From: an uncultured Pelagibacteraceae bacterium
GTDB taxonomy: Bacteria; Pseudomonadota; Alphaproteobacteria; Pelagibacterales; AG-422-B15
Length of the DNA stretch: 64,000 nucleotides
Assembly (NCBI GenBank): GCA_902524285.1
Contig: CABZCR010000002.1
Location: 1-64,000, forward strand
Direction of reading: 5' to 3'
Part shown: positions 1,214 to 18,537 of the stretch, piece by piece
Numbering within the stretch: position 1 is the stretch's first letter
Layout of the letters: each line of letters starts with the position of its first letter
Made by a program: the position numbers and the translations under genes
The notes under the pieces: generated by a model
Databases searched by the model: none
Seen by the model: the letters and a program-made list of their open reading frames with translations, nothing else
Told to the model about the DNA's origin: nothing

Positions 1214-2228
1214 AGATTATCAGCTTACAAAAGTTACAAGTGATAACAAAGATTTTTTATGCATTTTGTTTTATGGGCCAAATGAAGGATTAGTCAGAGA
1301 TAAAGTTAATTACACTACACAACAGTACTTGAGTACAAATCTATATGAACTGATTAACTTTAATGCTAAAGAATTAGATAATGATCCGCATACTCTAGAT
1401 AATATTTTAAGAACAGTATCAATGTTCTATCCAAATAAAATTGTTGTTATTGAATCAATAAAAGAAAAATACATAAAAATAATAGAAAAAATAATATTAA
1501 ATCCGCCACAAAAAGTGGTTTTGATAATCAAATCTGAAAATCTATCCAGATCATCGAAAATAAGAAGTTTTTTTGAAAGTGAAAAGACTATTTTTACACT
1601 TGCGTGTTATGAGGATGATATAAAAAGTCTAATGAAAACTATTGATTCATTTGATCAAGAAAACAAAATTGGTTTTGATCGTGATATCAAAAGTTATCTC
1701 CTTCAATCTTTAAGCAATGATAGGATGATCAGTAAACAAGAGTTAGAGAAAATTAAACTTTTTTGTCATAAAAATTCTAAAAAAATAGAACTTGATGATA
1801 TCAAAAACCTACTCCAAGACTCGAGTTCAAAAAACTTAAATATAATGAACCAGAATGTTATGAACGGTAACACAGCAAAAAGTTCGAGAGTAATTGGTCA
1901 ACTTCTATCTGAGGGCACTAATCCTATAAGTCTCATAAGAAGTCTCATAAATTACATTATGCGAATACAAATAACGAAAATTGAAATGAGAAAAGGTGAC
2001 AGTTTCGAAAATGCAATTAAAGCTTTAAGACCTCCAGTTTTTTGGAAAGATAAAGATATTTTTCAAAAACATTGTATGCAGTGGCCAATACAAAGTATTG
2101 AGAAAATCTTATCAAATTTGCTTGAAGCAGAAATAGAATGTAAATTAAACAGCAAATTATCAGGCATTAATTGTGAAAAATCTATTTTGCTTATTGCGAA
2201 TAAAGGAAGAGAATATCTTAGAAATTAA
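1203..2228 (+). CDS. holA: DNA polymerase III, delta subunit
   Basis: 341 residues, the usual HolA length. It starts with the ILFYGPNEGLVRDKV segment corresponding to the degenerate Walker-like region of delta, followed by the AAA+ fold and a C-terminal helical collar region. Delta is the wrench of the clamp loader that opens the beta sliding clamp; like other deltas it lacks a functional ATPase P-loop. The start ATG lies within the end of lptE (11-base overlap). It ends convergently with parB, the two stop codons sharing TTAA at 2225-2228, so there is no room for an intrinsic terminator between them. Confidence 0.88.
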   Translation: MIIKDYQLTKVTSDNKDFLCILFYGPNEGLVRDKVNYTTQQYLSTNLYELINFNAKELDNDPHTLDNILRTVSMFYPNKIVVIESIKEKYIKIIEKIILNPPQKVVLIIKSENLSRSSKIRSFFESEKTIFTLACYEDDIKSLMKTIDSFDQENKIGFDRDIKSYLLQSLSNDRMISKQELEKIKLFCHKNSKKIELDDIKNLLQDSSSKNLNIMNQNVMNGNTAKSSRVIGQLLSEGTNPISLIRSLINYIMRIQITKIEMRKGDSFENAIKALRPPVFWKDKDIFQKHCMQWPIQSIEKILSNLLEAEIECKLNSKLSGINCEKSILLIANKGREYLRN

Positions 2229-3085
2229 TTTTTAAGTTTTCTTGTCACTGATTCTAATTGGTCAAGAGTCTTATATTCAATTTTAATTGAACCACCTTTT
2301 TTACCTTTATGATCAATTAAGACATTTAATCCGAGAGTCGCGGTTAAATTATTTTCTAAGTCAATGGTGTCTGGGTCTTTAAGTTTTACTTTCTTAACTC
2401 CTGGCTTTTTCTGTTTTGCAAGGTCTTCTGCGGCTCTTACACTTAAGTTTTCGCTTACAATTTTTTCTGCCAACTGTTCTGGGAAAGCACTATTCATAAT
2501 TGCACGTGCGTGACCAGAAGAAATTTTACCTTCTGAAATCATATCTTGGATTGACTGAGGTAGTCCAAGAAGTCTAATAATATTTGCAATATGACTTCTA
2601 CTTTTACCAACAATTTCTGCAAGAACCTCTTGGGTATGACCATGGTTCTCAATTAATCTTTTATAACCAGCGGCTTCTTCTATAGGTGATAAATCGGATC
2701 GTTGAACATTTTCAATGATTGCTATCTCTAAAGATTCTACATCGTCTAATTGCCTGATAACTGCTGGAACTTCATGAAGTTGCGCAATCTGCGCAGCACG
2801 CCATCTTCTTTCCCCTGCAATTATTTCATACGCTCCAGTCTCAGTAGGTGATGGTCGAACCAATATTGGTTGCACAAGCCCTTTAGATTTTATTGACTCT
2901 GCCAATTCATTAATACTGTTTTTATCGAATAATCTTCTTGGTTGAGATGGACTAGGTTTAAGTTTTACAATTGAGATTTTAGTTTCTTGATTTGAGGACT
3001 CATTTTTATTTAGAGAAGTTTTAACATCACCCATAAGGGACGAAAGACCACGACCTAAACCTTTTTTTGAAATTGAAGAATTCAT
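2225..3085 (-). CDS. parB: Chromosome-partitioning protein ParB
   Basis: 286 residues. The N-terminus (KKGLGRGLSSL, residues 7-17) is the ParA-interacting motif of chromosomal ParB proteins. The CTP-binding ParB/Srx domain follows with GERRWRA at 91-97 and ENVQRSDLSPIEEA at 124-137, then a helix-turn-helix at about 150-175 that recognises parS, and a C-terminal dimerisation tail. ParB loads on parS, spreads as a CTP-dependent sliding clamp and, with ParA, segregates the origin region. It follows parA with a one-base TAATG overlap. A perfect parS lies about 1.4 kb away inside rsmG (4440-4455). Confidence 0.96.
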   Translation of the reverse strand: MNSSISKKGLGRGLSSLMGDVKTSLNKNESSNQETKISIVKLKPSPSQPRRLFDKNSINELAESIKSKGLVQPILVRPSPTETGAYEIIAGERRWRAAQIAQLHEVPAVIRQLDDVESLEIAIIENVQRSDLSPIEEAAGYKRLIENHGHTQEVLAEIVGKSRSHIANIIRLLGLPQSIQDMISEGKISSGHARAIMNSAFPEQLAEKIVSENLSVRAAEDLAKQKKPGVKKVKLKDPDTIDLENNLTATLGLNVLIDHKGKKGGSIKIEYKTLDQLESVTRKLKN

Positions 3086-3873
3086 TAAGCGGCCTCCTGT
3101 TCTTTATTTTGTCTTATGATCTCGTCTGCTAATCTTAAATACGCCTGACTACCTGCAGCTTTTTGATCATAAATTAAAGCTGGCATTCCAAAAGATGGTG
3201 CTTCTGAAACTCTTACGTTACGAGGTATGATTGTTTCATATACTTGTTGACTTAAATGCTTTTTAACATCATCAGCAACTTGTGATGAAAGTTTATTTCT
3301 TCCATCAAACATTGTTAAAACTATCCCGTCGATTGTCAGATTGTGATTAAGATTTTGCTTTACCCTATCAATTGTTTTTATTAGTTGACTAAGACCTTCT
3401 AATGCAAAAAATTCACATTGGAGCGGAACGATAATTGAGTCAGCCGCAGTCATTGCCATAACAGTGAGAAGACTTAAAGCTGGCGGACAATCTATGAAAA
3501 CATAACCAAAGTCATTTAAAGAATTTTGATCCGTTAAAATTTTTTTAAGAGTAAAAGCTCTATCGTTTACTTCGGCCAGTTCAGGTTCAATGCCTGATAG
3601 GTCAACAGTAGATGGAATGATTTTTAAATTTTCTATTTCTGTATTTTGAATTGCGTCAAATAACTCGCACTGAGATGCAAGAACCTCATAGATTGAGTTA
3701 TTTCTGTTTTGATAATCTATACCCAATCCTGTACTTGCATTTCCTTGTGGATCGAGATCAATAATTAAAACTTTTTCCCCAATTGCAGCTAAGGCTGTGG
3801 ATAAGTTTATTGCTGTAGTGGTTTTTCCCACTCCACCTTTCTGATTTGATATTGCTATAATCTTGCTTTTCAT
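3085..3873 (-). CDS. parA: Chromosome-partitioning ATPase ParA
   Basis: 262 residues, a chromosomal-type short ParA (Soj) without an N-terminal HTH. The deviant Walker A motif KGGVGKTT occupies residues 12-19, and FIDCPPALSLLT gives Walker B plus the A' region, followed by QCEFFALEGLSQL typical of Soj/ParA. It binds DNA nonspecifically as an ATP dimer and forms the gradient that pulls ParB-parS complexes. It is joined to rsmG upstream and parB downstream by TAATG stop/start overlaps, implying one transcript mnmE-mnmG-rsmG-parA-parB on the minus strand. Confidence 0.97.
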   Translation of the reverse strand: MKSKIIAISNQKGGVGKTTTAINLSTALAAIGEKVLIIDLDPQGNASTGLGIDYQNRNNSIYEVLASQCELFDAIQNTEIENLKIIPSTVDLSGIEPELAEVNDRAFTLKKILTDQNSLNDFGYVFIDCPPALSLLTVMAMTAADSIIVPLQCEFFALEGLSQLIKTIDRVKQNLNHNLTIDGIVLTMFDGRNKLSSQVADDVKKHLSQQVYETIIPRNVRVSEAPSFGMPALIYDQKAAGSQAYLRLADEIIRQNKEQEAA

Positions 3874-4496
3874 TAAGTTATTGATTTTATTACATTTTTT
3901 AATTCTAAAATATATGAACCTTTTTCTCTTTCATTTTCATGCAATACGTGAGTAAAATTCCAATATTTAGTAGCTTGCATAAGTTCTTCATCTATATGTA
4001 CACCTTTATGCAAAAGCAAAGTAGTATTTTTTTTGCTTATATTGTAACTAATTGATAATAAATGGTTTAATTGACTTACAGCTCTCGCTAAAATGATATC
4101 AAATTTTTTATTTTCAATTTTTTCAGCCTTAATGGGAATCACTTCAGTATTTTTAAGATCTAATTTAGCAATACATTTGTTAAGAAATAATGCACGTTTG
4201 GATCTATTTTCACACAAAAAAACCCTATTTTGAGAGCTAAATAGAAGTGAAACTGGTATACCAGGAAAGCCAGCACCACTTCCAATATCAATGATATCAT
4301 TTCCACTGCTATTTATAAACTGAGCTAATCTAAGAGAGTCATAGATATGTCTTGTCCAGATAAAATTCCTATCATTCTTTGATATTAAATTTTGGTCATC
4401 TGACAAAATCATTTCCCTGAATTCAGCCAATTTTTCAATTGTTTCACGTGAAACATTTGGCAAGAGCTCTTTAAGAGCATCTGGCGAATCAATCAT
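3873..4496 (-). CDS. rsmG: 16S rRNA (guanine-527-N7)-methyltransferase
   Basis: 207 residues, normal for RsmG (GidB). The SAM-binding motif DIGSGAGFPGIP is at residues 70-81. The enzyme makes m7G at 16S position 527 in the decoding region; loss gives low-level streptomycin resistance in other bacteria. The N-terminal NVSRET (residues 14-19) is encoded by DNA that is also a perfect parS site, so this stretch of protein is shaped by a DNA function. It sits between mnmG (10-base gap) and parA (one-base overlap). Confidence 0.95.
   Translation of the reverse strand: MIDSPDALKELLPNVSRETIEKLAEFREMILSDDQNLISKNDRNFIWTRHIYDSLRLAQFINSSGNDIIDIGSGAGFPGIPVSLLFSSQNRVFLCENRSKRALFLNKCIAKLDLKNTEVIPIKAEKIENKKFDIILARAVSQLNHLLSISYNISKKNTTLLLHKGVHIDEELMQATKYWNFTHVLHENEREKGSYILELKNVIKSIT
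4440..4455. promoter_or_regulatory. parS centromere site
   Basis: The 16-bp sequence TGTTTCACGTGAAACA is a perfect palindrome identical to the bacterial parS consensus. It lies inside the 5' end of rsmG, 350-600 bases upstream of parA in the transcription direction and about 10.3 kb from the likely oriC. ParB encoded at 2225-3085 is the expected binder. I found no second perfect copy when reading the window by eye. Confidence 0.93.
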
Positions 4497-10934: not shown

Positions 10935-12200
10935 CTATTTATTCATTGATTGAAAGAAATCTGCGTTATCTTTTGTTTCTTTTAATTTACCAAGCAAAAA
11001 TTCAATGGAGTCCATTGTTCCCATTGGGTTAAGAATACGCCTGAGAACATACATTTTTTGAAGCTCGTCCTTATCGAGTAAAATTTCCTCTTTTCGTGTA
11101 CCTGACTTAGTAATATCGATTGCAGGATATATTCTTTTATCAGCAACTTTTCTGTCCAATATAATTTCTGAGTTACCGGTACCTTTAAATTCCTCAAAAA
11201 TTACCTCATCCATTCTACTTCCTGTATCAATCAGGGCAGTTGAAATAATAGTTAGTGAACCACCATCTTCAATATTTCTGGCTGCTCCAAAAAATCTTTT
11301 CGGTCTTTGTAAAGCATTTGCATCTACACCACCCGTTAAGACTTTTCCTGAGCTTGGAACAACTGTATTGTATGCACGACCTAATCTTGTGATTGAGTCC
11401 AGTAAAATAACTACATCCTTCTTATGTTCTACTAGTCTTTTAGCCTTGTTGATAACCATCTCTGCGACTTGCACGTGACGTGACGCAGGCTCGTCAAAAG
11501 TTGAGCTGACAACCTCTCCTTTTACAGAACGTTGCATGTCGGTAACTTCCTCTGGCCTTTCGTCAATTAATAAAACCATCAAATAACATTCTGGGTGGTT
11601 ATCAGTAATTGAATGCGCAATATTTTGAAGCAAAACTGTTTTACCAGTTCTTGGCGGTGAAACAATAAGCGCTCTTTGACCTTTACCAATTGGTGCAACC
11701 AAGTCAATTACCCTTGAACTTTGATCACTTGCTGGTTTTTCAGTTTCTAATCTGATTTGCTCATCAGGGTAAAGAGGTGTTAAGTTATCAAAATTAATTT
11801 TATTTCTGCTTTTTTCAGTTGCTTCGTAGTTGATTGTATCAATTTTTAATAATGCAAAATAACGTTCACCGTCCTTTGGTGCTCTAATTGGACCCTCAAC
11901 AGTGTCTCCTGATCTTAATCCAAATCTTTTAATTTGACTTGGGCTTACATAAATATCATCAGGACCTGGAAGATAATTGGCCTCCATTGATCTTAAAAAA
12001 CCAAATCCATCCTGTAAAACTTCTAAAACTCCTTCACCGTCAATATCTTTGTTATCACTCGCAAGAGTTTTCAATATTTCAAACAGCATATCTTGTGTAC
12101 GCATTGAACTAGCGTTTTCAACGCCAAGTTCCTCTGCATAAACAAGAAGTTCTTGTGGAGTTTTTTTCTTAAGATCTCTTAATTTTAAGTTTTTAGCCAT
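10935..12200 (-). CDS. rho: Transcription termination factor Rho
   Basis: 421 residues. It has the N-terminal helical Rho-N region (1-45), a cold-shock-like RNA-binding domain (about 52-120, with GFGFLRS and [14 protein letters not shown]), and the hexameric RecA-like ATPase with Walker A SPPRTGKT near 181-188 and the [14 protein letters not shown] signature. It translocates on untranslated RNA and terminates transcription. With so few intrinsic terminators visible in this window, Rho is probably important for transcript ends here. It lies downstream of the haem genes, 74 bases after hemJ. Confidence 0.98.
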
Positions 12201-12274
12201 TCGTATTAATGATGATGATGTGGAAAATAGTTTGGAAGCTGTTTTCTAACCGTAATCGTTAAATATAGCAAGTT

Positions 12275-12718
12275 TTATATTGGTTTAAAAATAACCAGAA
12301 ATACGACAATTATCATCAAAACCGTTGGAAATTCATTGATAATTCTAAAAAAACGCTCTGATTTTGGCCTTTTATCTTCTTGAAACTCTCTTGTTAATTT
12401 TGAAAAATACCCATGAACTCCAGACATAAGAATCACAAATATGATTTTTAATTGAAGCCATAATTGAAACAGCGCATCAATACCCAAATTTGATATCAAC
12501 GCTAAACCAAACAACCATGAAAATATCATTGCTGGATTCATAATAATTTTAAGTAAACGTAATTCCATTAATTTAAAAGTCTCTGACGAGTCAGACCCCA
12601 CCTCTTTACTCCAATGATACACAAATAATCTTGGCAAATATAATAAACCCGCCATCCACGCTATCACACTGATGATGTGTAAACTAAGAAATAAGTTGTA
12701 TAAAAAAATTGAATTCAT
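12275..12718 (-). CDS. hemJ: Protoporphyrinogen IX oxidase HemJ
   Basis: 147 residues with about four transmembrane segments. The N-terminus LHIISVIAWMAGLLYLPRLFVYH is characteristic of HemJ (UPF0093), including the histidines and arginine implicated in haem binding. HemJ oxidises protoporphyrinogen IX to protoporphyrin IX, the substrate of ferrochelatase encoded immediately upstream; the genes overlap by four bases (ATGA). The C-terminus is very hydrophobic (FPTVLMIIVVFLVIF), as in the family. Location: inner membrane. Confidence 0.92.
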   Translation of the reverse strand: MNSIFLYNLFLSLHIISVIAWMAGLLYLPRLFVYHWSKEVGSDSSETFKLMELRLLKIIMNPAMIFSWLFGLALISNLGIDALFQLWLQLKIIFVILMSGVHGYFSKLTREFQEDKRPKSERFFRIINEFPTVLMIIVVFLVIFKPI

Positions 12719-13734
12719 CTTAATTCTTGGTCACATTGTTTAAACGTTGCCGGACATATTTTTTGCCTGATATTCCCGCTCTCAATTTTCTCTGACTCAC
12801 TAACTATTTCAGATAAGCTTTCTATAAATGTTTGATCAAGATTTAAAGACTCAGATCTATGGTAATGCTTACAGCCTAATTCGCTTGCAAGTTCTTGATA
12901 CTCGATATCTAATTCAACGAGTGTTTCAGAGTGATCCGAGACAAACGCAATTGGAACAATAACCAGCGCTCTATCTTCGCTAATTGCATTTTCAATTTCA
13001 CTTGGTGTTGTTGGTTCAAGCCATTTAACTGGGGTAACTTTACTTTGGTAAGCCAAAACATGATCTTCATAACCATGAATGCCCTGCATGACCGCCTTAA
13101 CTGTTTGCTCCACTTGCCACTGATATGGATCACCTTTTTTAATGATTGATACAGGTAAACTGTGTGCGGAAAATAGAACTCTTACTTTCTTATCTTTGAC
13201 GTGATTTATCTTGTTCTGGATCAGTTTTTGATGGGCTTTTATTAATTTCGCGTCATATGGATAGCAACAGGTGTATTTTGTTTTTGCATTTAATTTCTGG
13301 TTTTGGGCTTCTTTGAACCATGCATCCAAAGAAGATTTTGTTGTAGTTGTGGAGTACTGTGGATACAAGGGCAGTAAAAATATTTTGTCTGGATTATAGT
13401 CTTTTACTTTCGCAACGACCTCGGCTGTCATTGGGTGCCAATATCTCATACAAACAAATACCTTGTTTTCGATACCTTTGTTTTTTAGCTCTTTCTGAAG
13501 GGCCGCTGCTTGGGAGTTAGTAATTTCAAGAATAGGGGATTTACCGCCTATTTCAGCATAGATTTCAGTGGCCTCTTTGGTACGACGAGAAGATATAAGC
13601 CTTGCCAATAAATACCGGAATGGATTCGGAAGTCTAAATATATTGGGATCATTAAACAAATTAAATAAAAAAGGTTTTACGCTTTCTTGTTTATCTGGTC
13701 CGCCCAGATTAAATAAAACAACTGCTGTTTTCAT
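12715..13734 (-). CDS. hemH: Ferrochelatase
   Basis: 339 residues. It has the family landmarks VVLFNLGGPD at the N-terminus, RYWHPM, LLPLYPQYSTTTTKS, the active-site histidine region LFSAHSLPVSIIKKGDPY, and the PIAFVSDHSETLVELDIEY segment with the conserved His/Glu. It inserts ferrous iron into protoporphyrin IX, the last step of haem b synthesis. It is in a tight operon with hemE upstream and hemJ downstream, each by a four-base overlap. Confidence 0.97.
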   Translation of the reverse strand: MKTAVVLFNLGGPDKQESVKPFLFNLFNDPNIFRLPNPFRYLLARLISSRRTKEATEIYAEIGGKSPILEITNSQAAALQKELKNKGIENKVFVCMRYWHPMTAEVVAKVKDYNPDKIFLLPLYPQYSTTTTKSSLDAWFKEAQNQKLNAKTKYTCCYPYDAKLIKAHQKLIQNKINHVKDKKVRVLFSAHSLPVSIIKKGDPYQWQVEQTVKAVMQGIHGYEDHVLAYQSKVTPVKWLEPTTPSEIENAISEDRALVIVPIAFVSDHSETLVELDIEYQELASELGCKHYHRSESLNLDQTFIESLSEIVSESEKIESGNIRQKICPATFKQCDQELR

Positions 13735-14717
13735 TTTGACCTTATCTGTAAAAGCATCTGCTCAACCTTCTCAATTGATGTCTCGGGCAGAACCCCGTGC
13801 CCTAAATTGAAAATATGTGGTCTTTCTCTAAAAGCAAACAATATTTCTTCTATCTTCTGACTAAGGTTTTTGGAGTCTTTTAATAGGTGTTTAGGATCCA
13901 AATTTCCTTGAAAAACAATTTTATCGTTTAGCTCGTTAATTTTATCCAGGGGAAAATTATAATCTAAAGTAACACAATCAAGCTTATCAATATTTGAATA
14001 TTTTTTATAACATACAAGATTAGTGTTTCTGGGAAAGCCAATAACAGGTATGTCTTTTATTTTTTTTATACTTTCAATAATTTTTTTTGTAGGTTGAATA
14101 CACCATTTGTCAAACTGTTCGTCGTTCAAATGTTCTGCTGCTGATTCAAATACTTGAAAGGCATCAATTCCACAATTAATTTGCATTTCTGCATGTTGAA
14201 TGATCGCATGTGTCATTTGCTCGATTAAGTTATCAATTTGTGAGGTCTTTTTTATAACATCTTCGGGTTTTAGTTTTTGGCGTTCATTCTTTTCATATAA
14301 ACAATAAAACAAGGTCGTCCATACTCCACCAGCAAATCCTATTAAGGGAACATTTGTGTTTTCTTTAATTTTTTTTATTCCTGTTGCAAGGGGTAAGGTT
14401 TTTTCAGGATTATAATTTATGTTCTCATTAAATTTTATTAATGGACCCTGCCCTTCGATAAAACTAACGGTTGAACCTGCAGCAAGGGGGGTTATTAGGA
14501 TATCTGAAAATACAATACATGCGTCCATGCCATATCTTTTTACAGGCTGCATTGACACCTCAAGTATTGTCAAGGGGTCTAGAAACATATCCATTAAATC
14601 ACCAAATCTTTTTCTTATGGTTATGTATTCAGGCAAGTGTCTTCCTGCTTGTCTCATTAACCAAACTGGTGTTGGGTTTGTCTTCTGTCCTTTAAGTGTA
14701 TCTATAAATATACTCAT
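13731..14717 (-). CDS. hemE: Uroporphyrinogen decarboxylase
   Basis: 328 residues from the ATG at 14717 (MSIFIDTLKGQ). A longer frame continues to an ATG at 14906, but the extra 63 residues look like translated intergenic DNA, and HemE proteins begin just before the VWLMRQAGRHLPEY signature, seen here at residues 18-31. GFPRN and GHGVLPET near the end also match. It decarboxylates the four acetates of uroporphyrinogen III. The gene begins at the border of the likely replication origin, the same arrangement as hemE at the origins of Caulobacter and Rickettsia. Confidence 0.96.
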   Translation of the reverse strand: MSIFIDTLKGQKTNPTPVWLMRQAGRHLPEYITIRKRFGDLMDMFLDPLTILEVSMQPVKRYGMDACIVFSDILITPLAAGSTVSFIEGQGPLIKFNENINYNPEKTLPLATGIKKIKENTNVPLIGFAGGVWTTLFYCLYEKNERQKLKPEDVIKKTSQIDNLIEQMTHAIIQHAEMQINCGIDAFQVFESAAEHLNDEQFDKWCIQPTKKIIESIKKIKDIPVIGFPRNTNLVCYKKYSNIDKLDCVTLDYNFPLDKINELNDKIVFQGNLDPKHLLKDSKNLSQKIEEILFAFRERPHIFNLGHGVLPETSIEKVEQMLLQIRSK

Positions 14718-14990
14718 TATATTATATATATAATTGTAGTTGTTTATGTCCCTGTGGAATTGTGTATATATAAAAAGTCGCTTTTTGCCCACAATTCGAT
14801 ACACAGAACAATCGCTTTGAATTATAAGCTTTTTAACCTTATACACCGCCGTGGAAGAAAAACGCAGCATCTTTAACAAGTGAACAAAGTTTGCAAAAAT
14901 TCTCAATAAAGGTAGAAAAATAAGTTAAAAACTACAAATGAGCAAAGTTAGTAAAAGTACTCACACACCTTAAGGGGTTTATACAGGTTT
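14718..14990. other. Probable chromosomal origin of replication (oriC)
   Basis: This is the 273-base non-coding gap between divergent hemE and maf, and the longest gap in the window. Alphaproteobacterial origins are known next to hemE. DnaA-box-like nonamers (consensus TTATNCACA) include TGTGTATAT at 14761 (reverse, one mismatch), TTATACACC at 14839 (one mismatch), CGATACACA at 14797 and TTATACAGG at 14979 (two mismatches each). AT-only runs at 14718-14735 and an A-rich stretch at 14914-14940 could unwind. A nested inverted repeat lies at 14757-14797. Flanking genes diverge, parAB and parS are nearby, and the hemE and maf promoters must also be here. Confidence 0.8.
14757..14797. repeat. Nested inverted repeats in the origin region
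   Basis: GAATTGTG (14757-14764) pairs exactly with CACAATTC (14790-14797), and inside it AAAAAG (14772-14777) pairs with CTTTTT (14781-14786) around a TCG loop. The outer left arm runs into the DnaA-box-like TGTGTATAT, and the outer right arm is followed by ATACACA, extending the symmetry. It could be a paired DnaA-box structure, a regulator site, or a terminator-like hairpin. Confidence 0.6.
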
Positions 14991-15596
14991 ATGAACAGAG
15001 ATATAATTTTGGCATCTAAAAGCGAAACAAGGATTAAATTGTTACGCAACGCCGGCATAACCTTTGAGTCCGTTGCTCATGGTGTAGATGAGGATGAGGT
15101 AAAGCTGTCGATGAGCAAAAACACACCCGAAGAGGTTGTGGTTAAACTTGCCGAGATGAAGGCCTTGAAGCCCTCCATGTCTAATAAGGGTGCATTTGTT
15201 ATTGGATCAGACCAAGGCTTGGACCTGAAAGGCGAACTGATTAACAAGGCCCAGAATAGAAATGAAGCAAAAGAACAGCTGATGAAAATGAGCGGATCTA
15301 TTCACACCCTCATAACGGCCACGACGGTCGCCCAAGACAATAATATTATTTGGAAGCATGTAGACAGATCTAAAATGCATATGCGAAAACTGAGCGAGGA
15401 TCTGATAAAAGAATATTTAAATAAAGTCGACAACTATATTCTTAACCTTGTAGGTGTCTATGCAATTGAGAAAGAGGGAATCAAGCTTTTTGAAAATATT
15501 GGGAGCGACCTTTTTTCAATACAAGGTATATCATTAATTCAATTAACCCAGTACCTTTGGGACAATAATCTTCTATTTGAAAAGAATGACACATAA
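14991..15596 (+). CDS. maf: Maf-family nucleotide pyrophosphatase
   Basis: 201 residues, normal Maf length. It begins IILASKSETRIKLL (the SxSxxR motif at 9-14) and has GSDQGLDLKGE where the family has the catalytic aspartate region. Maf proteins hydrolyse non-canonical or surplus nucleoside triphosphates; the exact subfamily substrate (dTTP/UTP or m7GTP) cannot be fixed by eye. It is the first gene to the right of the likely origin, as in other alphaproteobacteria. Its composition is unusual: 58 of the 120 bases at 15121-15240 are G or C, well above the surrounding genes. Confidence 0.9.
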   Translation: MNRDIILASKSETRIKLLRNAGITFESVAHGVDEDEVKLSMSKNTPEEVVVKLAEMKALKPSMSNKGAFVIGSDQGLDLKGELINKAQNRNEAKEQLMKMSGSIHTLITATTVAQDNNIIWKHVDRSKMHMRKLSEDLIKEYLNKVDNYILNLVGVYAIEKEGIKLFENIGSDLFSIQGISLIQLTQYLWDNNLLFEKNDT

Positions 15597-16398
15597 AAAA
15601 ACAGCAGTTATCGGAGATCCAATAGATCACAGTCTTTCACCTAAAATTCATAACCACTGGATTGAAAGCGAAAGTATTGGTGTGGCTGCCTACCAAAAAA
15701 TAAATATAAAAAAAGAAAACTTTAATAGGGATGTTGATCGTTTAATAGAAGAGGGTTACTACGGTTTAAACGTTACAGTTCCACTTAAGGAGGACGCATA
15801 CAAATATTGTGATAACACATCTGATGTTGCAAAAACCCTCAAAGCAGTTAACACACTTATAATTAATAATGACGGTGTTTACGGTGATAACACCGACCCG
15901 ATCGGTTTTGAAAAATCAATTGCAAACAGAGGATTAAATAAAAAACCGTGTGTGGTGCTAGGAGCCGGTGGATCAGCAAGAGCGGTTGTGTACGCACTTA
16001 CACAAATGAAATGTGAGATTGGTATTTATAACAGAACAAAAAAAAACGCAGAAACACTTCGCAGCGACCTGGGTGTTGAGGCAACAATCTTAACAGAAAA
16101 AACACTTAGTGAGTTTGTCGGGTCCTCACATTTAGTTGTCAACACCACAAGCCTAGGGCAACAAGAAGGCGAAGAAAACAACTTAATAGACTTTAACAGC
16201 CTAAATTCATCCACACATGTTTACGATCTGATATACAATCCAAGCAAGACAACTTTTCTAAGACACGCTGAGAAAAATGGCTGCACAGTTCAAAATGGAT
16301 TAGAGATGCTAATTCATCAAGCTGCCCAGTCTTTTAAACTATGGCACGACACAATGCCTAAGTTTGATAAAGATTTAATGAGTGCTTTGGGGGGTTAA
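15577..16398 (+). CDS. aroE: Shikimate dehydrogenase (NADP+)
   Basis: 273 residues. It shows GDPIDHSLSPKIHN (shikimate binding), GLNVTVPLKE with the catalytic lysine, NTDPIGF, and the nucleotide-binding GAGGSARAVVYAL. It reduces 3-dehydroshikimate in the chorismate pathway. The start is either the ATG at 15577, overlapping maf by 20 bases, or the in-frame ATG at 15586 (MTHKKTAVIGDP), which better matches family N-termini. It is followed after three bases by coaE. Confidence 0.95.
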   Translation: MKRMTHKKTAVIGDPIDHSLSPKIHNHWIESESIGVAAYQKINIKKENFNRDVDRLIEEGYYGLNVTVPLKEDAYKYCDNTSDVAKTLKAVNTLIINNDGVYGDNTDPIGFEKSIANRGLNKKPCVVLGAGGSARAVVYALTQMKCEIGIYNRTKKNAETLRSDLGVEATILTEKTLSEFVGSSHLVVNTTSLGQQEGEENNLIDFNSLNSSTHVYDLIYNPSKTTFLRHAEKNGCTVQNGLEMLIHQAAQSFKLWHDTMPKFDKDLMSALGG

Positions 16399-16401
16399 CT
16401 A

Positions 16402-17025
16402 GTGTTGTTGGTTGGTATAACGGGATCTATTGGTATGGGAAAATCCACAGTTGCTCAAATGTTTAAAGACCATGGTTACGGCGTTTACAATGCTGACGAA
16501 ACAGTTCATTATATCTACGAAAACGATGGAGAGGTCATAGAAAAAGTAGAGAGACAATTTCCAGGCTCAACTAAAAACGGTGTAGTAAATCGACTAGCAC
16601 TAAGAGATATTCTAAATAAAGACCCTAATAAATTTAGAGATCTAGAACAAATTGTTCACCCCGTAACAAGGAAATATCAAATAATCTACATAAAAAAATT
16701 AATCGAAGAAGGAAAGATGGGTTGTGTTTTAGACATCCCACTACTCTTTGAAACTGGAGGAGAAAAATATGTAGACGTTTCTGTTGTGGTTACAGCGTCT
16801 GAGTCAACACAACAATCCAGAGTGGTGTTAGAGAGAAAAGTACCTTTAGAGATTTTTAACGCTATCAAAGATCAACAGATGCCAGACAGAGACAAATTAA
16901 AAAAAGCAGATTACATCATTTCAACTGATAAAAATATTGAAGATACCAAATCAGAGGTAAAAGAAGTTGCTGCAAAAATTAAATTGATTAATCCAAAGGT
17001 GTGGAATACCTTCTTTAATCGATGA
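16402..17025 (+). CDS. coaE: Dephospho-CoA kinase
   Basis: 207 residues starting at GTG. The P-loop GITGSIGMGKST is at residues 5-16, followed by NADETVH (family VxDAD-type motif) and VLDIPLLFETGGEKYVD. It phosphorylates dephospho-CoA in the last step of coenzyme A synthesis. It is between aroE and dnaQ, the order conserved at alphaproteobacterial origins, and overlaps dnaQ by four bases. Confidence 0.96.
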   Translation: MLLVGITGSIGMGKSTVAQMFKDHGYGVYNADETVHYIYENDGEVIEKVERQFPGSTKNGVVNRLALRDILNKDPNKFRDLEQIVHPVTRKYQIIYIKKLIEEGKMGCVLDIPLLFETGGEKYVDVSVVVTASESTQQSRVVLERKVPLEIFNAIKDQQMPDRDKLKKADYIISTDKNIEDTKSEVKEVAAKIKLINPKVWNTFFNR

Positions 17026-17732
17026 GACAGGTCGTACTTGATACAGAAACCACAGGACTAAGGCCTTCAGAAGGTCACAGAGTAATTGAAATTGCCGCAA
17101 TAGAGATAATTGATTATCTTCCCACTGGAAAAACATATCAACAATATATTAACCCCCAGCGAGATGTGCCTGAACCATCATTTAAGATACATGGATTAAG
17201 CTACGAATTTTTAAAAGACAAACCTTTGTTCGAGCATATTGTTTCAGAGTTCTTAGAATTTTTAGGTACAGATCCAATAATTGCTCACAATGTGGACTTT
17301 GATGTTGGCTTCTTAAATTACGAGCTTAATACTTGCGGTAAAGAGTCTATTAAAAATGATAAAATTGACACAGTTTCGATTGCTAGAGAAAAATTTCCTG
17401 GCCAGAGTGTCTCACTTGATGCGCTCTGTAAAAGATTTGCAATTGATAACAAGCAGAGAGAAAAACATTCAGCTACTATTGATACCGAGCTCCTAGCCCG
17501 TGTGTACATAGAACTAATGGATGCTCGCGAACTAAGCCTTGATCTAAGCACCAATTCAGTAATAGCGAACTCCAGCCCATCTTTTGACACTGAAAAGATC
17601 AAGAATAGAAATTTAGCACCTCGGATTTCTGATCAAGAAAAAAAACTGCATGAAGAATTTATTCAAACACTAGGTGAGCACTCTATTTGGAAAAAAATTA
17701 ATCAATCGAAAAACAATCAAACGAGTGAATAA
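17022..17732 (+). CDS. dnaQ: DNA polymerase III, epsilon (proofreading) subunit
   Basis: 236 residues. The 3'-5' exonuclease motifs are in order: DTETTG (7-12), HNVDFDVGFL (ExoII), and HSATIDTELLARVY (ExoIIIe, with the catalytic His and Asp). The C-terminal tail after about residue 190 is low in conservation and would bind the alpha subunit. It proofreads replication errors. Its 3' end may overlap the following Nudix gene, depending on which start that gene uses. Confidence 0.96.
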   Translation: MRQVVLDTETTGLRPSEGHRVIEIAAIEIIDYLPTGKTYQQYINPQRDVPEPSFKIHGLSYEFLKDKPLFEHIVSEFLEFLGTDPIIAHNVDFDVGFLNYELNTCGKESIKNDKIDTVSIAREKFPGQSVSLDALCKRFAIDNKQREKHSATIDTELLARVYIELMDARELSLDLSTNSVIANSSPSFDTEKIKNRNLAPRISDQEKKLHEEFIQTLGEHSIWKKINQSKNNQTSE

Positions 17733-18537
17733 CAAAATTAATCATACTTCTTGCGATAACGGCAATTATCAAAAAGTACCTACGCCAGCTGCATCAGTAT
17801 TGCTAATACGAGATACCAAACAGCGGATAGAGGTGTTTATGATTAAAAGATCCATGAAAACAAATTTTGGCGGTGTATGGGTATTTCCAGGAGGTAAAAT
17901 TGATAATGAAGATATTTCAAGTAATTATTTAAAATACAGCCCTCATCTTGATGACGTCTTAGCATCAGAACGGCTTGGTTTAAAAAAAGACGGCCTCTCA
18001 TATTGGGCTGCAAGTATAAGAGAGTGCTTTGAGGAAAGTGGAATTCTTCTTGCAAATAAAAAGGGAGTAAATTTAAAAAATACTGTTCTAAACAATGATG
18101 ATATTAAAATAATAGATCAATACAAAAGAAAAATTTTACAAGGTGAAAATATTTTTTATGAAATGATAGATATTTTAAATTTAGAATTGGCAACAAACGA
18201 ACTTGCATATATATCACACTGGGTTACTCCAAAAATAGAGAAAAGAAGATACAGTACTAGATTTTTTATAGCCCGCACAACCGATCAGGTAGCTGTACAC
18301 GATGGCGTGGAGGGAGTTGAAAGCAAATGGATTAATCCTGAGGAAGCTCTTGAACAGTTTAAGGCTGGAGATTTTCCTATGATCATGCCAACAATTAAAA
18401 ATCTTGAAATGATTTGTGGTTTTGCTAATACTTTTGAGCTTTTATCTTTTATGAACAGTAAAGATAAAAATGATATACCAAACGTAGAACCAGTTTTTGA
18501 GATTGTTGACGGTGAACCTAGATTAATTAGATACTAG
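17725..18537 (+). CDS. Nudix hydrolase with interrupted Nudix box
   Basis: About 270 residues from the GTG at 17725; another in-frame GTG at 17674 would add 17 residues lying fully inside dnaQ, and neither start has a clear ribosome-binding site. VFPGGKIDNED is the first half of a Nudix box, then some 37 residues intervene before AASIRECFEESGIL supplies the REXXEE half. Such an insertion is known in NUDT19-type (CoA-directed) Nudix proteins, so a CoA or acyl-CoA diphosphatase is possible; nearness to coaE is suggestive only. The 3' end overlaps convergent secB by 11 bases. Confidence 0.82.
   Translation: MNNKINHTSCDNGNYQKVPTPAASVLLIRDTKQRIEVFMIKRSMKTNFGGVWVFPGGKIDNEDISSNYLKYSPHLDDVLASERLGLKKDGLSYWAASIRECFEESGILLANKKGVNLKNTVLNNDDIKIIDQYKRKILQGENIFYEMIDILNLELATNELAYISHWVTPKIEKRRYSTRFFIARTTDQVAVHDGVEGVESKWINPEEALEQFKAGDFPMIMPTIKNLEMICGFANTFELLSFMNSKDKNDIPNVEPVFEIVDGEPRLIRY

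Follow-up and report, generated by a model that had tools for sequence, protein, structure and literature searches.

A putative hemE-type chromosomal replication origin between hemE and maf in a SAR11 bacterium

INTRODUCTION

Where does chromosome replication begin in SAR11 bacteria? SAR11 cells count among the ocean's most abundant, and growth estimates from metagenome coverage require a known origin position. Among the titles and abstracts listed by our searches of open-licence literature, none reports a mapped SAR11 origin. The window analysed here (the whole stretch of DNA under study, 64,000 nucleotides) is the first part of a 94,746-base contig, C2, from a 958-kb genome assembly in 32 contigs that is 69% complete. 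A search with its HemE brings up 'Pelagibacteraceae' records as named relatives, which places the genome in SAR11. It contains an unusually long gap between hemE and maf, which a first-pass annotation, made from the letters alone, proposed as the likely chromosomal origin.

We conclude that this gap is very probably the chromosomal replication origin, as that annotation had suggested. The conclusion is based on the position of the gap, the surrounding gene cluster, the conservation and enrichment of DnaA-box-like sites, the two-arm GC skew of relatives and the lack of a box cluster at dnaA. The gap very probably belongs to the known hemE-type origins of Alphaproteobacteria, with two unusual traits: its boxes are weak, and the middle base of its trio-like repeat is changed. 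From these observations we infer DnaA binding, the melting site and bidirectional firing, which are described conditionally below.

THE GAP AND ITS GENE CLUSTER

The gap and the genes that give it its setting are as follows:

14718 to 14990, no strand: the 273 bp between hemE and maf, putative oriC
13731 to 14717, minus: hemE, uroporphyrinogen decarboxylase (PF01208, E 2.3e-74)
14991 to 15596, plus: maf, nucleotide pyrophosphatase family (PF02545, E 2.8e-38; TIGR00172 above its cut-off)
10935 to 13734, minus: rho, hemJ-like (UPF0093) and hemH
15577 to 17732, plus: aroE, coaE and a dnaQ-like exonuclease
2225 to 3873, minus: parB and parA
4440 to 4455, plus: parS, inside gidB, a perfect match to TGTTTCACGTGAAACA

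The gap is bounded by the hemE start at 14717 and the maf start at 14991. The mechanical hemE reading frame extends to 14906; once it is trimmed to the conserved start, the 273 bp form the longest gap of the 64-kb window, as first claimed, and the runner-up has 123 bp. The TIGR01464 hemE profile gives 295 bits, slightly below its cut-off of 303.

Genes run in the order parB-parA-gidB-gidA-mnmE...rho-hemJ-hemH-hemE on one side and maf-aroE-coaE-dnaQ on the other; the Caulobacter origin is flanked by this same cluster. The divergence noted in the first-pass annotation holds: between 2.2 and 14.7 kb, 11,304 coding bases lie on the minus strand and 996 on the plus strand, the exceptions being two small plus-strand genes at 8.1-9.0 kb, and the maf side has five plus-strand genes from 14,991 to 18,537. 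The parAB genes and parS are also where they were reported, with the perfect parS 10.3 kb from the gap.

Three side observations concern genes of this neighbourhood. The hemH gene next to the putative origin (12715-13734 in the window) occurs in two very different forms within the window's family, with 66-96% or 26-28% identity to the window's copy and no simple phylogenetic pattern (loci L054, L055 and L209-L214), and the sequences suggest gene replacement adjoining the origin. Beside rho, the minus-strand gene at 9988-10881 matches an inverse autotransporter beta-domain (PF11924, E 8e-24); comparison with 18 related loci, some of them too short to reach that place, gave a match to this protein in 3. 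Finally, two related loci, L203 (genome G025) and L212 (G015), resemble one clade of the genus at gidA and mnmE (91-95%, as in clade A, defined below) and another, clade B, at hemE (56-59%), maf (69%) and aroE (46-47%); judged from these identities, the mix is a mosaic break near the putative origin. By eye, the DnaA of G025 resembles that of clade A.

CONSERVATION OF THE GAP AND ENRICHMENT OF BOXES IN RELATIVES

Relatives were taken from two families of the order, for which we use the working labels f1 (the window's family) and f2. In the window's genus, 43 genomes, all in pieces, were searched; 4 had no hemE match, and for 30 of the other 39 the match was accompanied by a locus. Seven further genus loci were added later, as was G042, an outlying member of the genus; G021, a fragment, was left out. 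Clade A consists of the window and 21 same-genus loci with HemE identities of 81-95%, and clade B has HemE identities of 56-59%.

The 30 aligned same-genus loci, the window's among them, all have hemE and maf on either side of a gap measuring 271-277 bp; in the seven additional clade B genomes the gap is 275 bp. In G042 it measures 262-283 bp, depending on the start estimate. The same two genes lie on the two sides in 18 of 20 further loci (G042, two of the same family and 17 from f2). In 15 f2 loci, a ppsR-like reading frame precedes maf, and the gap from hemE to ppsR is 235-286 bp after coding ends are trimmed. With such recognisable flanks and nearly fixed length, the putative origin can be placed even in fragmented assemblies.

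The two exceptions belong to genus g5 (L072 in G046, L073 in G047), where the hemE match is a distant homologue of 26-27% identity, far from maf. Among the genes in line with it, two match hemH and hemJ of the window. In G046, ppsR and maf are still adjacent, at about 1.06 Mb.

DnaA-box-like sites were counted with the motif TTATNCACA and compared with the counts of 559 permuted motifs made of the same letters. Sites with at most one mismatch number 47 in 21 clade A gaps (a count reached by 6 of the 559 permuted motifs), 32 in 8 clade B gaps (0 of 559), 13 in the three gaps of G042-G044 (0 of 559) and 64 in 15 f2 gaps (0 of 559), although box counts within a clade are not independent of one another. 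The untrimmed gaps of the more distant relatives (G042-G044 and f2) held up to 51 bases of the hemE coding end, and trimming these leaves the counts unchanged. The check in relatives proposed with the first-pass annotation is therefore answered by strong enrichment in related gaps.

In the f2 gaps (L057-L071, 15 gaps), the most frequent exact 9-mer is another one: TTATNAACA occurs 34 times, TTATNCACA 6 times, TTATNGACA once and TTATNTACA not at all. In several f2 gaps the box-like 9-mers stand in tandem, in 11-bp steps. These counts suggest that the DnaA box of the sister family has drifted to TTATNAACA.

GC SKEW AND THE dnaA REGION

In many bacteria the origin lies at dnaA, and the hemE-maf gap would then be merely a conserved divergent promoter. 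On the window's contig, dnaA is found at G000:C2:80306, about 65 kb from the gap; the hemE-dnaA distance is 60-71 kb in all 11 genomes compared in which hemE adjoins maf, so low-resolution skew separates the two positions only in part.

Skew was sampled in 4 of the 11 one-contig f2 genomes (G061, G045, G051 and G048), from the hemE locus and 20 stretches, each 20 kb long, which covers about one third of each genome. In a two-arm GC-skew fit with the terminus opposite the origin, the distance between hemE and the best origin is 56, 30, 28 and 29 kb in these genomes, respectively, where half-chromosomes are 580-672 kb long; 4-5% of grid positions match the two-arm score of hemE. The distances from the same optima to dnaA are about 119, 101, 91 and 34 kb. 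The optimum is thus closer to hemE than to dnaA in 4 of 4 genomes, though barely so in G048 (29 versus about 34 kb). The plain cumulative GC minimum is looser: it falls on hemE in G051 and 291 kb away in G048, and in G061 and G045 it is 64 and 80 kb from hemE, within the sampled stretch containing dnaA, which favours an origin at dnaA. Third-position skew puts the origin 126, 0, 8 and 101 kb from hemE, agreeing in only two of the four relatives. The skew check suggested with the first-pass annotation does not refute the origin: the two-arm fit falls in the neighbourhood of hemE, and the other two measures are looser. A skew switch is a customary sign of an origin but is not among the four criteria of PMC1914354. 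Because gene direction alone gives the same optima, GC skew and gene direction are to be counted as one line of evidence.

In the window's genus, plain skew on a 660-kb contig of G037 is mostly negative up to a turn 27-60 kb before hemE and mostly positive after it. On this contig and on the window's, skew at third positions has no switch. Skew on the window's own 94.7-kb contig was set aside, the contig being too short and its skew governed by gene direction.

The regions upstream of dnaA (330 bp) speak against an origin there. In 18 f1 sequences they contain 20 one-mismatch boxes, a count reached by 84 of 559 permuted motifs and hence no enrichment, and in 8 f2 sequences they contain none. 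This control used 26 of 28 DnaA loci, leaving out one from f1 and one from f2 with fewer than 200 bases upstream; G020 had no dnaA match, and a weak partial match in G017 was left out. With no enrichment of boxes at dnaA and two-arm optima nearer hemE, we regard an origin at dnaA as very improbable.

DnaA-BOX-LIKE SITES IN THE WINDOW'S GAP

As the first-pass annotation stated, the boxes of the window's gap are imperfect: exact matches to TTATNCACA number zero. Exactly two sites have one mismatch, at 14761 (minus) and 14839 (plus), where 0.34 would be expected from the density in the window; 41 of the 559 permuted motifs equal this count. Sites with at most two mismatches number 15 (13 of them with two, including 14797 and 14979 of the first-pass annotation and several that are pure AT). 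The density in the window would predict 4.1, and permuted motifs average 4.8, with 3 of the 559 reaching 15. Elsewhere in the window, two places hold three one-mismatch sites within 265 bp, so the gap is not singled out by one-mismatch boxes alone; its region also reaches three if a site just outside is counted.

Nine f1 representatives were aligned, and each of 530 start and strand choices was scored by its mean mismatch in six relatives outside clade A, three of which are mutually close clade B genomes. The lowest scores are 1.0 at 14761 (minus), 1.33 at both 14839 and 14870 (plus), 1.5 at 14785 (plus), 1.67 at 14879 (minus) and 2.33 at 14979 (plus), against a mean of 5.55 over all choices (a scan of the gap up to 14974). 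When only one clade B relative is kept, leaving four relatives, the order is 14761, 14785, 14839 level with 14879, 14870 and 14979. The box-like sites of the gap are:

14753 to 14761, minus: weak DnaA-box-like site adjoining the trio-like repeat; 3 mismatches, TGTG kept in nine f1 representatives
14761 to 14769, minus: DnaA-box-like ATATACACA; 1 mismatch, the best conserved position of the gap (first of 530)
14785 to 14793, plus: DnaA-box-like TTGCCCACA; 2 mismatches, exact TTATCCACA in G043 (fourth of 530)
14797 to 14805, plus: box-like CGATACACA; 2-6 mismatches in six relatives (53rd of 530), unsupported outside clade A
14839 to 14847, plus: DnaA-box-like TTATACACC; 1 mismatch, exact TTATACACA in G044 (joint second of 530)
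14870 to 14878, plus: decayed box position with 3 mismatches in the window; joint second of 530 in relatives, and the left member of an inverted pair
14879 to 14887, minus: TTGTTCACT, the right member of this pair; 2 mismatches (fifth of 530)
14957 to 14965, plus: box-like GTACTCACA; 2 mismatches, ATATCCACA in three clade B representatives, not conserved in G042-G044
14979 to 14987, plus: box-like TTATACAGG beside maf; 2 mismatches (sixth of 530)

Of 8 clade B gaps, 5 have an exact TTATCCACA at 14870; the position at 14979 is an exact TTATACACA in G042, with one mismatch in G044 and three in clade B. Both one-mismatch nonamers of the first-pass annotation are therefore present and kept in relatives. 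Its two sites with two mismatches are likewise there; 14979 ranks sixth in relatives, and 14797 is unsupported outside clade A. The sites at 14785 and 14870/14879 are new relative to its list, as are the candidate melting module on the hemE side and the TTG-TAG-TTG repeat described below.

A further reading is that the gap only drives transcription of the hemE and maf operons in both directions, its conserved core being promoter and leader. Genes do diverge from the gap, and its core, about 75 bp long and close to hemE, is almost identical between clades A and B, whose HemE identity is only 56-59%. Outside this core, however, the conserved positions are DnaA-box-like and at fixed places, the hemE side keeps its boxes in f2, where ppsR sits before maf, and relatives show two-arm skew. 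We consider a promoter-only role even less probable than an origin at dnaA. Promoter activity and an origin role may coexist in the gap; the Caulobacter origin has a promoter inside it.

A CANDIDATE MELTING MODULE NEXT TO hemE

The hemE end of the gap has two features:

14718 to 14735, no strand: AT-only run in which the DNA unwinding element probably starts, present in the nine f1 representatives aligned
14734 to 14742, plus: trio-like repeat TTGTAGTTG, which reads TTG TAG TTG

Read from hemE on the plus strand, the AT run is followed by the trio-like repeat, then by a short spacer and a pair of neighbouring box-like sites in the same orientation (14753 and 14761). On a 20-step scale, the window has just five positions of lower stability than 14718. 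The AT-only stretches noted in the first-pass annotation are thus real in this run, but the gap as a whole is barely richer in AT than the window (68.9% versus 67.5%).

The trio position varies by lineage: it is TTGTAGTTG in 22 of 22 clade A gaps, TAGTATTAG in all 15 clade B genomes read, TAGTAGTAGTAG in G043 and G044, and TTGTTGTTG (TTG TTG TTG) in G042. TAG/TAT runs are present in part of the f2 gaps. Compared with dinucleotide shuffles, the trio run is strong only in G043 and G044 (0.00-0.01), marginal in clade B (0.04-0.07), mixed in f2 (0.00 to 1.0 over 15 gaps) and weak in the TTG forms (0.02-0.16 in clade A, from 15 of 22 values, and 0.12 in G042). The TTG reading accordingly follows from position, not from these statistics.

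The arrangement resembles the bacterial basal unwinding system (BUS), in which DnaA moves from a box pair onto trios (consensus 3'-GAT-5') and melts the DNA, as described in PMC8287927 and PMC6669920. The published BUS rule combines a box that differs from TTATCCACA at no more than two positions with three or more NAN trios at a distance of 0-16 bp. The rule has no match in the window's gap, and 77 of 200 shuffles of the gap give one. G044 satisfies it at the homologous place, with a spacer of 15 and five trios; in G043 and G034, the best hits of each, three at most, lie elsewhere than the trio position.

In Bacillus subtilis, according to PMC10721633, Asn187 of DnaA contacts the middle adenine of the trio, and a thymine at this middle position slows or impairs melting and replication. 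The matching residue is Phe in 19 f1 and Tyr in 9 f2 proteins among 28 SAR11 DnaAs; an alignment of chain 8btg_A and the DnaA of the window's genome served to check the numbering. Co-variation of single-strand-binding residues with TTG and TAG trios was considered and rejected: the residue at the Asn187 position is Phe in the TAG and TTG clades alike and so does not explain the trio change.

As a separate observation on this protein, the DnaA of the window's genome (near 80.3 kb of contig G000:C2) has KSRLSGGL, in which Gly takes the place of a Trp seen in G043, G044 and B. subtilis. The Trp forms of the motif are KSRLSWGL and RSRFEWGL, and Gly is present in 26 of 28 SAR11 DnaAs. This change from Trp to Gly after KSRL/F sets G043 and G044 apart from the other 26 but ignores trio type, and it too was dropped as a candidate.

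The middle adenine is largely T in clade A and G042, and relatives have TAG or TAT. Tentatively, SAR11 origins may use an altered DnaA-DNA code, with the trio recognised differently or melting achieved without it; we rate this as possible but rather unlikely. The TAG-to-TTG series within one genus offers natural variants for how DnaA reads a melting repeat.

Taken as an origin, the gap might work as follows. DnaA would occupy mostly non-consensus boxes over the gap, at 14753-14769, 14785, 14839, 14870/14879, 14957 and 14979. A DnaA filament would grow from the tandem pair at 14753-14769 across the trio-like repeat at 14734-14742, then enter and melt the AT-only run at the hemE start. Helicases would load at the melted run and forks would depart in both directions, with the nearby ParABS system segregating the new origins.

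OTHER REGULATORS AND THE PROBABLE LOSS OF A BOUNDARY GENE

Sites for other regulators were also sought. Exact CtrA sites (TTAA-N7-TTAA) number zero in 33 f1 gaps, where one-mismatch forms are not enriched either, and 11 in 15 f2 gaps, a count reached by 12 of 69 permuted motifs. For IHF we used WATCAANNNNTTR, which differs from the consensus of PMC1914354. The window's gap has 1 one-mismatch site (reached by 97 of 200 permuted motifs), and the f2 gaps have 44 (22 of 200), both near chance. None of the 33 f1 gaps contains GANTC, and the 15 f2 gaps together contain 3 copies; PMC3973325 reports a CcrM homologue for SAR11 genomes.

A search for ppsR (COG1806), the usual second boundary gene, gave no match in 5 f1 genomes, one of which is just 69% complete, and a match in 4 of 4 f2 genomes. 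Given this distribution, the hemE-maf boundary most likely arose through loss of ppsR in the window's family.

COMPARISON WITH KNOWN SYSTEMS

The origin of Caulobacter crescentus (Cori), which was identified experimentally, and that of Rickettsia lie between hemE and COG1806, according to PMC1914354. The window's gap is like them in its hemE boundary, divergent flanks and DnaA-box-like sites. It is unlike them in that its second boundary gene is maf rather than COG1806/ppsR and in that, across 33 f1 gaps, CtrA and IHF sites show no clear enrichment and GANTC is absent. The published criterion for a hemE-type oriC, as worded in the same paper, is position near either boundary gene; a missing ppsR is therefore compatible with membership of the type. 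Published hemE-type origins without CtrA sites exist as well (PMC1914354).

Another likeness is to the origins of Wolbachia, Ehrlichia and Anaplasma, which the same source places between hemE and COG1253. There, as here, hemE is kept on one side and the gene on the other side has changed, and some members have few or no CtrA sites. The second gene differs from maf.

At the level of melting, the gap resembles the BUS in its co-oriented weak boxes, short spacer, three-base repeat and AT run, and in the orientation from box through trio (3'-GAT-5') to AT (PMC8287927, PMC6669920 and PMC10721633). It differs in that the repeat of the window's clade has T in place of two of the three middle adenines.
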